Shown here: piece after piece, positions 17,042 through 48,505 of the stretch
Position numbering within the stretch: position 1 is the first letter of the stretch
Layout of the letters: each line of letters starts with the position of its first letter
DNA from: Tubulanus polymorphus
Lineage: Eukaryota; Nemertea; Palaeonemertea; Tubulaniformes; Tubulanidae
Direction: 5' to 3'
DNA length: 64,000 nucleotides
Assembly: GCF_964204645.1 (NCBI RefSeq)
Contig: NC_134030.1
Location: 6,198,278-6,262,277 of the forward strand
Position numbers and translations under genes: made by a program
The notes under the pieces: model-generated
Told to the model about the DNA's origin: nothing
Databases searched by the model: none
What the model saw: the letters and a program-made list of their open reading frames with translations, nothing else

Positions 17042-17229
17042 AAGCTCTTGCGGTGATTGCGATAGGTTGATGACCGCTGAAATAGGGGATTCACTGGATT
17101 GTTTTTGTCCGGAGTAAGAGTACCAAACGCAGTGGGGGATTCCCTTCAATACTCAGTTCAAATATACTGGCATTCCTGTACTGGAATACCCCTCCTTACT
17201 AATGTTTTGATAATTTAGAAAGTTTGGTT

Positions 17230-18420
17230 GGGTTTGATGGGTGAAACCACATCAATGCGTGGCTAAGTAAGATTTCCCATTACACACTCCAGTACCCACA
17301 GCTTTCATATATCCATCCAAATATTTAGTGGCTTTCTTCCTGGATTAACATGTTTACTTATGAACTTAACGATTAAATGTCTTGTTTATGCTATAGGATA
17401 TGGAATATTTTGGAAGAGTGGACTCAACACAGGAGATCTACCCCTAGATTGGAAGTTGGCAATGGTTACACTGGTCTTCAACAGGGGACAGGCGCCTGTC
17501 AGAAAAAATCAGGCCAGTATGAAAAAAATATGATAAAAATTTGGCACAAATTCCAGGCACAAACACACTGGGCATACACCATGTCAAAGACTAAAACAGG
17601 CATGCCAAGGTTACGGTATCGGTCCAAAACTTGCTTCAACCAGTCAACAAGGACCAATACTTGAAACTCTACAAAAGTGCAGAAAAGGCAGTCATGTCAG
17701 TCTATAATTCAAATATCCTTATCGTTGAAGACTTACACCTACCAGGATGGGACTGAAACAAAATGGAACTAAAGCCAGGTACCACTCAAATACATCACAA
17801 TTTCCTGGAAATGTTGAATGACCATGGCCGGACTCGGATAGAAGAACCCACCTATGACGAAAATACCCTTGATCCAACACTGCAACACTCGTCCAATAAT
17901 GAGCGGACACCATGCCAGGAATATCAGATGTCGTGTACACTGAGATTAATATCTAACGCTCTCATGCAAACTTAACACCCCCGAAGATACCCTAGTACAT
18001 ACAACATAGCAAACTTGGAAAGTGACAGGATAAGTCCACGCATAGTGGGGTTCAAATAACCAAGATTTTCAGCAACAGTAAGTGAACTGAGGATCTGTTG
18101 ATAAACTTATGAAAACAACTAGAGGAAATCATGTCCAAAAACATTCTTTACAAAACTTCCATGCAAAACGACAGCGAACCATGGATAGACCAAGCTCTTT
18201 GCCGATGGATCGAACAATCTGATCGTCTCTACAGCGAGATGATGAAATCTGGCCAACCTGAACGTAGAGTAGAATACAAAAACGGTAGACCAACAGTGCA
18301 ATGAGACATCAGGAGAGCTTACTGGAAATATATCGAAACCGAATGTACGAATGTCAGGGCTGCCAACTAACCAGTTCTCATGTCTCAAGAAACTTGGTAA
18401 CCCTGGGCTGTGAATACTGG
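17230..18420 (+). pseudogene. Degenerate non-LTR retrotransposon, copy 1 (RT piece, then EN piece)
   Basis: Three degraded coding pieces lie in a row on the plus strand. At 17380-17500 a reverse-transcriptase-type segment reads about GIFWKSGLNTGDLPLDWK and TLVFNRGQ (compare the IF..SLNTG.LP.DWK..NV..IF..G region before RT motif 1). At 17740-17960 an endonuclease-type segment reads LPGWD and KMELKPGTTQIHHNFLEML with NDHG and NTLDPT, as in EEP endonucleases of CR1/Jockey-like elements. At 18175-18360 an RCxxYREMxKSGQPE-like linker and AYWKYIE follow. Stops and frameshifts interrupt all three. The RT piece precedes the EN piece, the reverse of a normal element. Confidence 0.65.
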
Positions 18421-42790: not shown

Positions 42791-43110
42791 AATATATTCC
42801 ACATTTTTAAACCTGTCTTGTATGATATTTAATCCATGGCTTCGGCCATTATAGTTTCAGGTCCTTGAGGTAATTTATGATTAGCATAAATTAAGAAGTA
42901 TTAAGGATAATTGATTCATTCTAAAAATTCTGTATAAATAAGTTAAAGGATAAGGTACATTATTCGTTATAGGGTAAGAGTAATTATTAGGAAAGGCAAG
43001 ATAGGTTAACAACAAATATAGTTATAGTAATCACTGATTTAGGTATTAATGATAGTAATAATTGATAATGATAGTTACATATTCTAGGACTTAGATTAGT
43101 TGAATTAAAA
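42790..43110. other. AT-rich array edge
   Basis: AT-rich sequence with a short TTAAGGATAATT-type texture. No gene or known repeat is recognised. Confidence 0.5.
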
Positions 43111-44035
43111 GTTTATTTGGTTTGGTCTTGCTTTTTAAGACCTACTCAGACATTGCTTGTCTGGATCAGTGTCCAGGTTCTAGTATCTCGCATCTCATTA
43201 GTTCGGATTTTTGTTTTGTTTGAATCTTTCATCTTCCGAAGACTCTGCTGATTGTTTTCTAGGTTTCACTGGTTTGGTCTTGCTTTTTAAGACCTAGCTC
43301 AGACATCGCTTGTCTGGACCAGTGTCCGCTAAGTTCGTCCGATACGCTACCGAAAATGTCGAATCCGTGCCGATAAGCTAGTCCGAAAACACTACCGAAT
43401 GTGTCGAATCTGTGCCGATAAGCTAGTCCGATACGCTACCGAAAGTGTCTAATCCGTGCCGACAAATTAGTCTCAACACGCTACCGAAAATGTCAAATCC
43501 GTGCCGACAAGTTAGTCCAGATACTCCAGTGTTGTGAGAAGTCCGCTCCAGTTTTTCGATTTTCTCAAGGTTTCACTGGTTTGGTCTTGCTTTTCAAAGG
43601 CCTAGCCCAGACATCACTAGTCTGGACCGGTTTCCGAGTTAGGTTCAGGTTTCTCGTATCTCAGTCAATTTGTCGGAGAGGTTTAGTTTTGGTATTTTAT
43701 TTTCTCAAGACTGGTGTCCAAGTTAGTTTCGTTCGAGGTCTCATTTGGTTGGATGTTTGTTTTGTTCGGATCTTTCATCTTCTGAAGACTCGCCATAGGT
43801 GCTGATTTATTCTAGGTTTCGCTGGTTTGGTCTTGCTTTTTAAGACCTAGCTCAGACATCGCTTGTCTGGACCAGTGTCCATTAAGTCAATACGAAATCC
43901 GTGCCAATAAGTTAGTCCGATTGCGCCAGTGTTGTGAGAAGTCCGCTCAAGTTTTTATATTTTCTCTAGGTTTCACTGGTTTGGTCTTGCTTTTCAAAGG
44001 CCTAGCCCAGACATTACTATAGTCTGGACCGGTTT
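43111..44035 (+). repeat. Five structured repeats that can form a three-stem cloverleaf
   Basis: Copies at about 43111-43175, 43262-43329, 43566-43632, 43815-43880 and 43969-44035. Each reads CACTGG-TTT, a first hairpin (GGTCTT...AAGACC), CTAGCT or CTAGCC, a second hairpin (CAGACA...TGTCTG), GGA, then CCAGTG, so outer and inner stems close. Copies 3 and 5 differ in both arms yet still pair with a G-T wobble (GGTCTT/AAGGCC and CACTGG/CCGGTT). Copy 4 has CGCTGG/CCAGTG. Copy 1 keeps the inner hairpins but has a poor outer stem. There is no coding potential. The element class is unknown. Confidence 0.65.
43334..43513 (+). repeat. Tandem repeat, ~50-bp unit, about four copies
   Basis: Units contain CTACCGAAAATGTCGAATCC and GTGCCGATAAGCTAGTCC with a few substitutions each. 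It lies between structured-repeat copies 2 and 3. A partial unit recurs near 43895-43925. Confidence 0.75.
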
Positions 44036-45890
44036 CTAGGTTAGGTTTCTTGTAACTCAGGTCGGAGAGGTTTAGTTTTGGTATTTCATTTTCTCAAGCT
44101 CTAGTTCAGGGCTACTCGTCGAGTCTGGTTTCTATAAGGTTACTACTGTAATTTAAAGGATAATTAATGAAGTAATTTATGATAATTAATTACTCTAGTT
44201 AATACTTATAATTTATTCAGCCTAAAATCCACATAGATGCATGAGAGGGTAAGGTACATGTAGGGTAAATAGTAGAGTATTTAATAGAGTGAGGTATCAA
44301 TTAAAAGATAAGGTAACAAATATAGTGAATTTTTAGTTAGCTATAATAGTAATCAATGGAGTAATTAATGATAAGTAGAACTAACGATAATAGCGTTAGT
44401 CTAATATAGACCAAAAAATACATTTTCTTAGGTTTAATTCCTTAAAAAATGTAACTTAACTGTGATTATTTGTATGTATATTTTAAAGGGGAAGGTTTTT
44501 TTCGTTCATGAAATTTTTTCGTTGTGCAAATCCGACGAACCGCACTGAGGATAACGCCGTGCATGCACCCTTTGTATTTTGTGCATGTACAGCAGGCCCT
44601 ACCTCGGTGATGCACCATAACCACTAATGAAATAGAAACATGGTTTGCGATAAGATGAATCTTATTTTCTTATTCATGAATAAGAAAATGGTTTAAAGCT
44701 GATTCTAGTGTATGTACGTACCATGTTTCGCACAAGGGCCGAAACACATAGGACTGATAGGATGGAACTCAATTTATTTCTTTAAGGTTATACAATAAGT
44801 GTATGGCCTACTGTTCAAAGAGCTGCAACAAACTTAAGAAGTGTGTTAAGATTCTGTCTATAATTACGGCTATTAAGCCGAAGTGCCACAAAGATTAGTT
44901 CTTCTTGAAATCCGTCCTGTGTGTCTGCGGAAAAAAATGAACATATATTGTTCTAAACTAAAAACTAAAAACGTTCCTTAATAGACGTGAGACCAATGGT
45001 CACTGTTATATTTTTTCTATAATTTTAGATAAGTGGTCAGGAAACCGGTGACCAGGTCAAAAACCGAGGATATTGAGATCTGAAACTCTAACGAAAGATG
45101 TTCCGAGCATTCGCAACATCATCACAGGAATTAGCATGGAAAAAGATTTTCGGCAGTAGGGCAGCCTCCTCTACTCGTAAATTAATGGAAATTGGAAGCA
45201 GTTGGTGGCGATATTAGATATATATGAAAACTTTTTTATGATGTAGGTTCTAAGAGTTCCGAGTCTGATAACGATGTGATGGCTATTGGTTTGCTGCTGT
45301 TGTTGAACCAAGTGTTCCATGATGTGTCGGACAAATGTTACAGGAAAATATCTCTCAGGTTCGTAATATATTGATTGACTTGTGAGATGCATTAGACTTC
45401 ATTTACCTGGGAGTCGAAATGATCCTGATCAGAGGCAGATCCAGAGCCCTATCTTGAAGGGGTTCTAAATTGTCACAAGGGCACTCACTATTGCGGGAGG
45501 GCGCTTTCTATGTCAAATTTCGGCAAAAAAAGGGCACTTAACATCAAACTTGTGGTTTTCAGGAGCACTTTCTACGCCAAATCATGCCAAACAAGGACAC
45601 TTTTATGTCAAATCCATGGATTTAGGGGCATTTCCAAGGGGCACAGACAAAGCTCGACGGTATCCCAGAACCCTCGGAACCCCCGCTGGATCCGCCCTGC
45701 TGATTGTTGTGTGCCATGGACTCTGCTTGCGACGGTGCTGATCTCATCAGATTATTGTGTACCCCGTATTCTGATTACCTCCAGATTATCACCTGCCCCA
45801 CAAAAGACTCCACATTAATCTGGAGTTGTTTGCCTTTTTATGTTCCTCAGCCTCTACTCATCGCGCATGCCTTGCAGCCTTCGAGGTGGA
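44036..45890. other. No recognised gene; AT-rich and dispersed-repeat DNA
   Basis: The first part (44130-44450) is AT-rich. A 26-bp perfect palindrome lies at 44664-44689. From about 45480 the sequence is richer in GGGCACTT / GGGCGCTTTC phrases, a low-order internal repeat. Short frames across 45170-45390 and 45510-45895 show no recognisable domain. Confidence 0.45.
44664..44689. repeat. 26-bp perfect palindrome
   Basis: Thirteen bases each side pair with no loop, centred on TTCATGAA between 44676 and 44677. Confidence 0.85.
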
Positions 45891-45895
45891 TCTAG

Positions 45896-46505
45896 GAGCA
45901 GAATTTGACAGGAGCACAAAGAAATATAAAGGGCATATACACTGATAAAGGGCAAGTTAAACTCTGTATCCTGGCAGACCAAAACAAGGGCGTAAAAAGT
46001 TTTGAAATTTTAGTGCGTTTTCATACAATTTCTAGGAACTTAAGGGACATACGGTAAGGAATTTTAGCTGAATCCTGTGCTGGACTGCTGTCTTATAAGT
46101 TGCGGGTGGAAAAAATGCCCTGAATTGCCATTGTATCTCCAAAAGGGCACAGGAAAATTGCCGGTCCTGTCTGGACCGTCCCGGCTATTTCTTTGGATTT
46201 TCGCATACCCCAAACTCCAATTACCCTGGAATCGATTTTGGATTATTACTTGCCCTGAACTCAAGTTAATTCAAGGCAATGCATTCCTGCGTAACAGTTA
46301 CACAGGAATGCATTGCCTTGAATTATCACACCCCAACTGACAATATGTATAATGACCCACTACTACCGTATATTTTCATTTTTGATTTTATTTTGCAGGC
46401 TGTGGAAGTTGTGTTAATGAAAACTATCCAGTTATTCAGAAAACAATTCTAGAATCAGTCAAGCAAAAACAACTTCTGAAGAATGTCGACAACTAACTTT
46501 TATGG
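45896..46505 (+). repeat. Direct repeat, left copy (~610 bp)
   Basis: Homologous over its length to 47936-48505, from GCAGAATTTGACAGGAGCAC to AGAATGTCGACA. It has extra sequence where a perfect hairpin is found (46267-46325). The copies are about 2.04 kb apart in the same orientation and differ by scattered substitutions and small indels. Whether they are LTRs or a segmental duplication is unclear, as no polyprotein lies between them. Confidence 0.7.
46267..46325. repeat. Perfect hairpin, 23-bp arms
   Basis: Arms 46267-46289 and 46303-46325 are exact reverse complements. The loop itself contains GTAAC-A-GTTAC. The homologous place in the right direct repeat (about 48290-48325) has only one arm. 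Confidence 0.85.
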
Positions 46506-47935
46506 GTCCCAGTTAAGTTTTACAGGGTCATAGCGAGTCTCTACAAAGTGCTTGTTCTTACTTTGTCTCAATCTCACTATGAACCATATTCAATTTGAAT
46601 AAATTCTAAAAGGCTCCAGTACCTAATTCCACCGCTGTCAGTTTGTTTTTGCTTCATGTCGTTTGGATCTTGGTTTCTTAAGACTAATCCTGCTATTAGG
46701 TTGTTCGTTTAACCTCACAATGGAACAGCCTTTGAAGTGTTGCCTGCACCCTGTAAGCAGCCACACACCAGGACTCGAACCCGCTCATTACTCATTACAT
46801 TTGTCACTCATTTCTGTCACACCTTATGCTGCTGAGGCTCCTCGGTGAAATTTCACTCTTGTAAAGTTTAGTAGTTCATTTCCTCTATATTCATTGTAAA
46901 CAACAACTTTGGAACTGTGGTAAATGGTTTCCAAGGACATCAACGAGGATCCCCGTTTGGCGGACGCCCCAGGCCAAACAGGACATGATAGAACATATGT
47001 TTTTAACATATGTCCATGGGTAGAATAATCATATTCACTAAGAGGTGAAAAATATTTTCAAGAGGTGTTGGCTCTTGTCCAATGTTCCAGTTGCCGGGCA
47101 ACAAGTAACACTGAAGAAAATATCAAACTTATTCGTTTTGGAAGAATATACATTAACGATAATGTCTTAAAAGGTCAATTTTGTGTGCCATGCTTGTGTC
47201 AGAGCGAGATTTGTTTATTTGGCTATGATTTTATTCGATTATGATGTGCATGTTAATTAGTTATGGGAAAGAGTTGCTTTCTTGGTAGTGTCTTATTCAT
47301 ATCGGATTATTACTGTAGGATTTTTAATTATGTCTAGTGTCTGGACTAGGCATATTTTATAGACAATATGAAAGCCAATAATGCATAAATTGTATTAACA
47401 ACTGTATTAACTTTTTAGATTTTGTGAATTTTATTAGTTTATTTTAGTAATAGGGTATCTTGTAACAAATTATTGACATTTAACATTAGGACAATTAATG
47501 TACTTAATTAATACTAGATTTATTACTCTGATCTGAAAGATCAAAATTATTTTACTATCGTTAAAACGATTTTCTTGAGAAAGATGGATGTTATATAGTT
47601 ATTAGGTACAAATCTTATTAGTAGGGATTACTGTTGGTCACAGGAATGTGAACAACAGCAGGATGCAGGGGTTTAAGTATGCAGGATCTGTGATGCAAAC
47701 CAGATGTTGGTTGCATCACAAGATCCACGAGATATTAGAGAGAGTTTTGGAGGGAACATGGGAGTCGAGAGATCATTTGCTTGGGCAAGACGTATTTAAG
47801 AATGAAATACCGGTATGTGAAGAGCGGAGTTTTCGTTATGAGGATCCGAGCAAACCACATATCTCACGAACGGACCAAGGACATCAACGAGGATCTCCGT
47901 TTGGCAAAGACGCCCGGTCCAAACACGACGCCAGG
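46506..47935. other. Spacer between the direct repeats
   Basis: No gene is recognised. 46513-46590 plus 46905-46930 resemble 50081-50190 in LMBR1 intron 3 (AAGTTTTACAGGG, AAGTGCTTGT, GGAACTG, TTAATGGTTTTC phrases). 46932-46985 resembles 47874-47930 (AGGACATCAACGAGGATC). 47040-47640 is AT-rich. A minus-strand B-box-like sequence lies near 46770. Confidence 0.45.
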
Positions 47936-48505
47936 GGCAGAATTTGACAGGAGCACAAAGAAATATAAAGGGCATATATACACTGATAAAGGGCAATTTA
48001 AACTCTGTATCCTGGCAGCCAAAACAAGGGCCTAAAAACTTATTGAAATTTCAGTGCGTTTTCATACAATTTCTAGGAACTTGAGGGACATAAGGAATTT
48101 TAGCTGAATCCTGTGCTGGACTGCTGTTGCGGGTGGGAAAATGCCCTGAAAAATATTGCCATTGTATCTCCAAAAGGGCACGGGAAAATTGCTGGTCCTT
48201 TCTGGACCGTCCCGGCTATCCTTTGGATTTTCGCATGCCCCAAACTCCAATTACCCTGGAATCGATTTTGGATTATCACTTGCCCTGAATTCTGCTTACG
48301 CAGGAATGGATTGCCTTGAATTATCACACCCCAACATGTATAACCCAAGTCTACTACTGTATATTTTCATGTTTGATTTTATTTTGCAGGCTGAGAAGGT
48401 GTGTTAATGAAAACCATCCAGTCATTCAGAAAACAATTCTAGAATCAGTCAATCAAAAATAACTTCTGAAGAATGTCGACACCTAATTTTTATGGTCCCA
48501 GTTGC
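47936..48505 (+). repeat. Direct repeat, right copy (~570 bp)
   Basis: Partner of 45896-46505, in the same orientation. It keeps the CTGTGCTGGACTGCTG, AAATGCCCTGAA, GGACCGTCCCGGCTAT and GGAATCGATTTTGGATTAT landmarks. It lacks the second hairpin arm. Confidence 0.7.

Follow-up and report, generated by a model that had tools for sequence, protein, structure and literature searches.

Long non-coding RNAs are difficult targets for sequence searches, since all that evolution preserves in them is small structured repeats. In repeat-bearing nuclear RNAs of the hsr-omega type, the non-coding locus combines tandem repeats kilobases long with an adjoining unique part that is spliced, and the Drosophila roX RNAs come from two paralogous loci in one genome. 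The mammalian Xist A-repeat, part of a long non-coding RNA, is a short structured unit present in 7.5–8.5 copies with variable U-rich linkers, and its copy number and consensus are conserved but its spacers are not (PMC5742192). In the roX RNAs of Drosophila, focal, repeated RNA secondary structures are reported to be retained even as other parts of the transcript are replaced (PMC4719309).

Consistent with the original prediction, which had named five copies with the arms CACTGG/CCAGTG (outer stem) and GGTCTT/AAGACC and CAGACA/TGTCTG (hairpins), a consensus scan located five copies of a ~66-nt element with these arms in one non-coding stretch at 43110–44036 of the window (the whole 64,000-nt stretch of DNA analysed, C6:6198278–6262277). 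The units of this array and the sequences between them were as follows.

43110–43174, plus strand: copy 1, with which the array begins; A-like core, both hairpins, outer stem weak (covariance-model score 80.8 bits)
43262–43327, plus strand: copy 2, subtype A, full three-way junction (consensus scan and fold)
43326–43524, plus strand: tandem repeats of a 45-nt unit (CCGATAAGCTAGTCCGATACGCTACCGAAAATGTCGAATCCGTG), separating copy 2 from copy 3
43569–43635, plus strand: copy 3, subtype B, forming the three-way junction with U.G pairs in both the outer stem and hairpin 1
43700–43725, plus strand: probable vestigial sixth copy, retaining the left flank TTCTCAAG and ACTGG/TGTCC, hairpins gone
43815–43880, plus strand: copy 4, subtype A, with G.U in the outer stem
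43969–44036, plus strand: copy 5, subtype B, with the longest hairpin-2 loop

Each module has a 6–8-bp outer stem closing two 6–7-bp hairpins, with one U-rich loop (GCUUUUU) and one variable loop. Four or five consecutive T occur in hairpin 1 of every copy, the third copy on contig C8 (see below) having a shorter TTTTT variant, and ~12 bases upstream of the core (TTTTCTCTAGG; TTTTCT-TAGG) are also common to the copies, with flanks that differ between A and B. The two predicted subtypes are real, A comprising copies 2 and 4 and B copies 3 and 5, and the outer stem of copy 1 is indeed weak, its left arm being poor at both of the loci described below.

The eukaryotic genome searched comprises 268 Mb in 77 contigs. 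When all of it was searched with queries of 71 nt (subtype A) and 82 nt (subtype B), the element was found at two sites only, the window array and an array on contig C8, although very diverged copies could escape because the genome search starts word-based. The C8 locus has the same five copies as the window, in the same order and with the same subtypes, and its copy 4 is identical to copy 2 of the window over 66 nt. The homology extends well beyond the arrays, as listed here.

14394–48493, plus strand: paralogous block, homologous to C8:12479413–12516542 on the minus strand
19729–42747, plus strand: tandemly repeated ~690-bp units that contain CCCTAAA-like runs and GA-rich subrepeats of 28, 50 and 78 bp; these arrays immediately precede the five copies
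C8:12482783–12482847, 12482615–12482682, 12482276–12482334, 12482025–12482090 and 12481806–12481868, minus strand: copies 1–5 of the C8 locus (consensus scan)

The block measures ~34 kb in the window and ~37 kb on C8, with unrelated flanks on either side. Its tandem repeats, which make up most of it, are organised in a higher order, show strong GC skew and a CpG observed/expected ratio of 0.3, and are nearly private to two genomic loci; the five-copy array separates them from a downstream part with fewer repeats. With two mismatches allowed, a search for a 17-nt pattern gave nine exact sites, all within the arrays, with matches elsewhere at control level, and a covariance model built from the ten sequences recovered all ten copies at 70–97 bits in 151 kb of fetched loci, with only one chance-level match beyond them. 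Absence of other copies had been named beforehand as a point against the prediction: none was found elsewhere in the genome, yet the C8 locus has all five in synteny. A dispersed transposon or SINE was rejected because the element is confined to the two arrays in the whole-genome searches, and a viral or prokaryotic origin because neither IMG/VR nor the GTDB species genomes contained an exact match to a 24-nt pattern and plasmids contained no match to the array. The same five-copy layout, together with the remnant sixth copy, is found at both loci; therefore, as judged from the two arrays, the layout is older than the C6/C8 split. The remnant at 43700–43725, present at both loci, is probably a deleted sixth copy, and the 45-nt repeats recur at the C8 locus with similar sequence but in different number.

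Like the Xist A-repeat, the locus keeps a repeated unit of predicted structure while the spacers diverge. In Xist, however, the 26-nt unit makes a hairpin and pairs with other repeats as duplexes, whereas the 66-nt unit here folds into a self-contained three-way junction, and no sequence relation to the A-repeat was found in a comparison with Rfam. With the roX RNAs it shares repeated structures that persist amid turnover and two paralogous loci; the motif differs, and no roX family matched in Rfam at the curated threshold. The locus may resemble those of hsr-omega-type RNAs in setting kilobases of tandem repeats beside a spliced part, but its structured units make up a five-copy array of their own, adjoining the long repeats. 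By analogy, then, we regard the resemblance to Xist A-repeats and roX as a likeness of working and not of membership. The family had gone unrecognised in the original prediction, and Rfam 15 likewise gave no match in the window at the curated threshold; at relaxed E-values nothing fell on the copies, and weak sub-threshold matches lay elsewhere. A tRNA or tmRNA was rejected, with no genes found by ARAGORN and two internal hairpins as opposed to the three arms of the tRNA cloverleaf.

The element had been described as a cloverleaf. Folded as plus-strand RNA, the three-way junction, in which the outer stem closes two hairpins, was both the minimum-energy structure and the centroid for copies 2–5 at both loci (8 of 10 copies), with z from −1.9 to −4.3 against shuffles; copy 1, however, folded best as two hairpins only, the outer stem being absent. 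Eight control segments of 66 nt, inter-copy or adjacent, gave z from +1.4 to −2.0. On the minus strand, subtype A forms the junction but subtype B does not. When the whole 938-nt array was folded, the junction was kept by copies 2 and 4, and copies 3 and 5 formed the two hairpins only; this fold was not exceptional (z −1.6).

Downstream of the array, the following features lie on the same strand.

44495–44895, plus strand: second conserved segment, predicted to be strongly structured as RNA (z −3.3 for the plus strand, −2.9 for the minus strand)
45013–45030, plus strand: putative 3′ splice site TTTCTATAATTTTAG, conserved at C8
46380–46603, plus strand: putative last exon, with candidate 3′ splice site TTTGATTTTATTTTGCAG followed by the poly(A)-like signal TGAATAAATT

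The first ~223 nt of the second conserved segment are about 97% identical between C6 and C8, and 81 predicted pairs are in common. The splice-site-like TTTGATTTTATTTTGCAG near ~46398 is identical in 18 of 18 nt at the two loci, and the poly(A)-like TGAATAAATT is present at both, near the end of homology in C8. No conserved reading frame was found: the longest open frames over the array look like chance occurrences, and indels between C6 and C8 break the frame of the putative exons, which makes coding unlikely. Conserved coding exons were rejected, the candidates being partly open in C6 and frame-broken in C8. These downstream signals point to a putative transcription unit, spliced and non-coding, that would be read from the plus strand.

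Several further observations concern this downstream part. The segment 44495–44895 carries a 24-nt palindrome, TTTTCTTATTCATGAATAAGAAAA, and belongs to no Rfam family. The putative last exon is closely preceded by a near-perfect palindrome at 46267–46325 (29-nt arms, 97% complementary, 1 nt apart); matches to MIR7696, mir-2059 and MIR5241 fell on this palindrome, far under the cut-offs, and were rejected. About 600 bp including the putative last exon are duplicated with ~2-kb spacing (45894–46505 and 47933–48495, roughly 90–96% identity), and the duplicate at 47933–48495 has neither the palindrome partner nor the poly(A)-like signal. At 45430–45708, a dispersed repeat with dozens of genomic copies is inserted in the C6 locus.

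Its fold, its recurrence in the same order at C8 and its slow change relative to the surroundings make the element a probable component of a non-coding RNA that is absent from databases. We put at about 50% the probability that the five elements are structural modules of an unannotated, plus-strand, probably spliced non-coding RNA from the duplicated ~34-kb locus (C6/C8). According to this model, the repeat-rich locus, duplicated between contigs C6 and C8, would be transcribed on the plus strand and the transcript spliced; each module would fold as a small three-way junction, and the modules jointly would, as the likely mechanism, provide a multivalent binding platform for one RNA-binding protein, with the module-bearing RNA having a cellular role. 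We consider it doubtful that, further, a new three-way-junction motif forms the functional core of a fast-evolving lncRNA gene, with two paralogs on different chromosomes, that acts as a multivalent protein platform with a chromosome or nuclear-body role. If the locus is transcribed, it would be a compact case, with ten natural variants of the module, two paralogous loci and slow stems amid fast spacers, in which folding and protein binding are open to direct test.

The main rival, less likely than the modular RNA but a serious contender, is that the array is a neutral relic, in which an imperfect foldback was multiplied by local tandem duplication with doubling of the A–B dimer, the block was later copied to another chromosome and the fold is functionless. 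The duplication history is indeed clear, copies 2–3 and 4–5 being a duplicated A–B dimer with flanks in common and long repeats spaced 553 and 400 nt apart; in addition, the surrounding ~23 kb are satellite-like, and copy 1 starts at the array edge without an outer arm. However, in a comparison of the two paralogous loci within this one genome, 9 of 316 aligned core sites differed (2.8%; 97.2% identity) as against 64 of 587 in the inter-copy DNA (10.9%; 89.1% identity), so divergence in the core is about a quarter of that in inter-copy DNA with an equal duplication history (Fisher p = 9e-6), as expected from the claim that the inter-copy DNA is the more variable. The flanking parts differed at 32 of 273 sites upstream and 81 of 962 downstream. 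Substitutions between copies number 1–3 within a subtype and 7–9 between subtypes at both loci; A and B are still distinct at both, and therefore within-locus homogenisation is not the cause of the low core divergence. Indels between the loci in the core are found in the hairpin 1 loop, the hairpin 2 loop and one junction base of copy 1, leaving the stems intact, and 11 of 40 columns are variable in stems compared with 18 of 29 outside them (p = 0.006), the ten copies being few and related sequences because only two paralogous loci were compared. Thus, several constrained copies of a structured unit are present, as five syntenic copies at two loci.

Twenty stem pairs were defined from subtype A, and over these pairs and the ten copies 94.4% of cells are paired; sliding the structure along the alignment as a control lowered this to 19–49%, which is expected because the structure was drawn from those sequences. 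The terminal pairs 6–66 and 45–53 are broken in subtype B. Among the internal pairs, 6 of 18 vary, and the alternatives are all G.U or Watson–Crick on the plus strand, bar one U.U in copy 1 of C6; several of the variable pairs would be A.C mismatches on the minus strand. Five of the six changes run from Watson–Crick to G.U on the plus strand (A.C on the minus strand) and none the reverse (one-sided sign test, 1/32, leaving out the pair already U.G in subtype A), and in a neutral simulation the chance of keeping six of six pairs was 0.0005–0.02, depending on the transition share; both tests take the changes as independent and the structure from subtype A, and they are modest because there are few independent events and transcription strand-biased mutation could contribute. 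Variation limited to loops and plus-strand wobble pairs argues against a neutral relic. The stem changes, predicted to be compensated, are pairing-compatible and mostly one-sided to G.U, but a two-sided change was seen only in pair 9–63 of one copy (C8 copy 3, from U-A/U.G to C-G). The proposed covariation check, run as a shuffle test, was not significant: no covariation above column composition was found (score 0.150 compared with a shuffled mean of 0.154; 274 of 500 shuffles reach the observed value), as the neutral relic would have it. The support is therefore constraint together with wobble-compatible change, and covariation is not part of it. C-to-T decay, which had been raised as a mimic of wobble pairs, is disfavoured as a simple cause by A/G variants on the 3′ arms and by a CpG observed/expected ratio of 0.95 within the array.

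The same strand asymmetry bears on the suggestion that the element is either a folded RNA or a protein-bound DNA structure. The fold that beats shuffles, the core constraint and the plus-strand wobble favour RNA, and DNA fits the asymmetry less well. If the element works as DNA, its inverted-repeat arms would be the binding site of a dimeric protein or would extrude as cruciforms, and it might, for instance, mark a boundary or serve replication where the satellite array gives way to the downstream unit. At the DNA level the hairpin arms form inverted repeats, the perfect palindrome CCAGACTAGTCTGG occurs in C8 copy 3, the array lies at the edge of a large tandem array and the probable sixth copy resembles a deletion between outer arms. 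Nevertheless, the wobble variants pair on one strand only, A.C or G.T mismatches would be disfavoured by a duplex-DNA protein or a cruciform, and the palindrome spacing varies among copies, so that we judge this reading improbable. Equally improbable are independent small RNAs, each copy (about 66–85 nt) being cut from a host transcript like intron-encoded small RNAs: the unit is discrete and evenly conserved amid divergent spacers and shares the ~12 additional upstream bases, but it has no snoRNA, microRNA or tRNA match (Rfam, ARAGORN), its arms are too short for microRNA precursors, and Pol III transcription is unlikely because of the four or five T of hairpin 1 in every copy.

Weak matches to the 690-bp repeat occur on C3, C6, C7, C9 and C10. 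Those on C3, C9 and C10 were rejected as element-bearing relatives, being degenerate CCCTAA arrays without the element; degenerate CCCTAA/CCCTAAA interstitial arrays, weakly like the 690-bp repeat, lie on several contigs. A C/D snoRNA reading of the TGATGA-rich 78-bp repeats was rejected, the Rfam scores being sub-threshold and judged to be chance. The longer repeat units include a decayed fragment at 17.4–18.4 kb, copies of which are repeated and which, from its translation by eye, we take to resemble a non-LTR retroelement; 17061–17267 is part of a dispersed repeat found on most contigs in copies of ~80% identity. Gene fragments in the vicinity have an animal look, with a TTC3-type winged-helix domain at 721–2475 and a sub-threshold LMBR1-like match at 55 kb.
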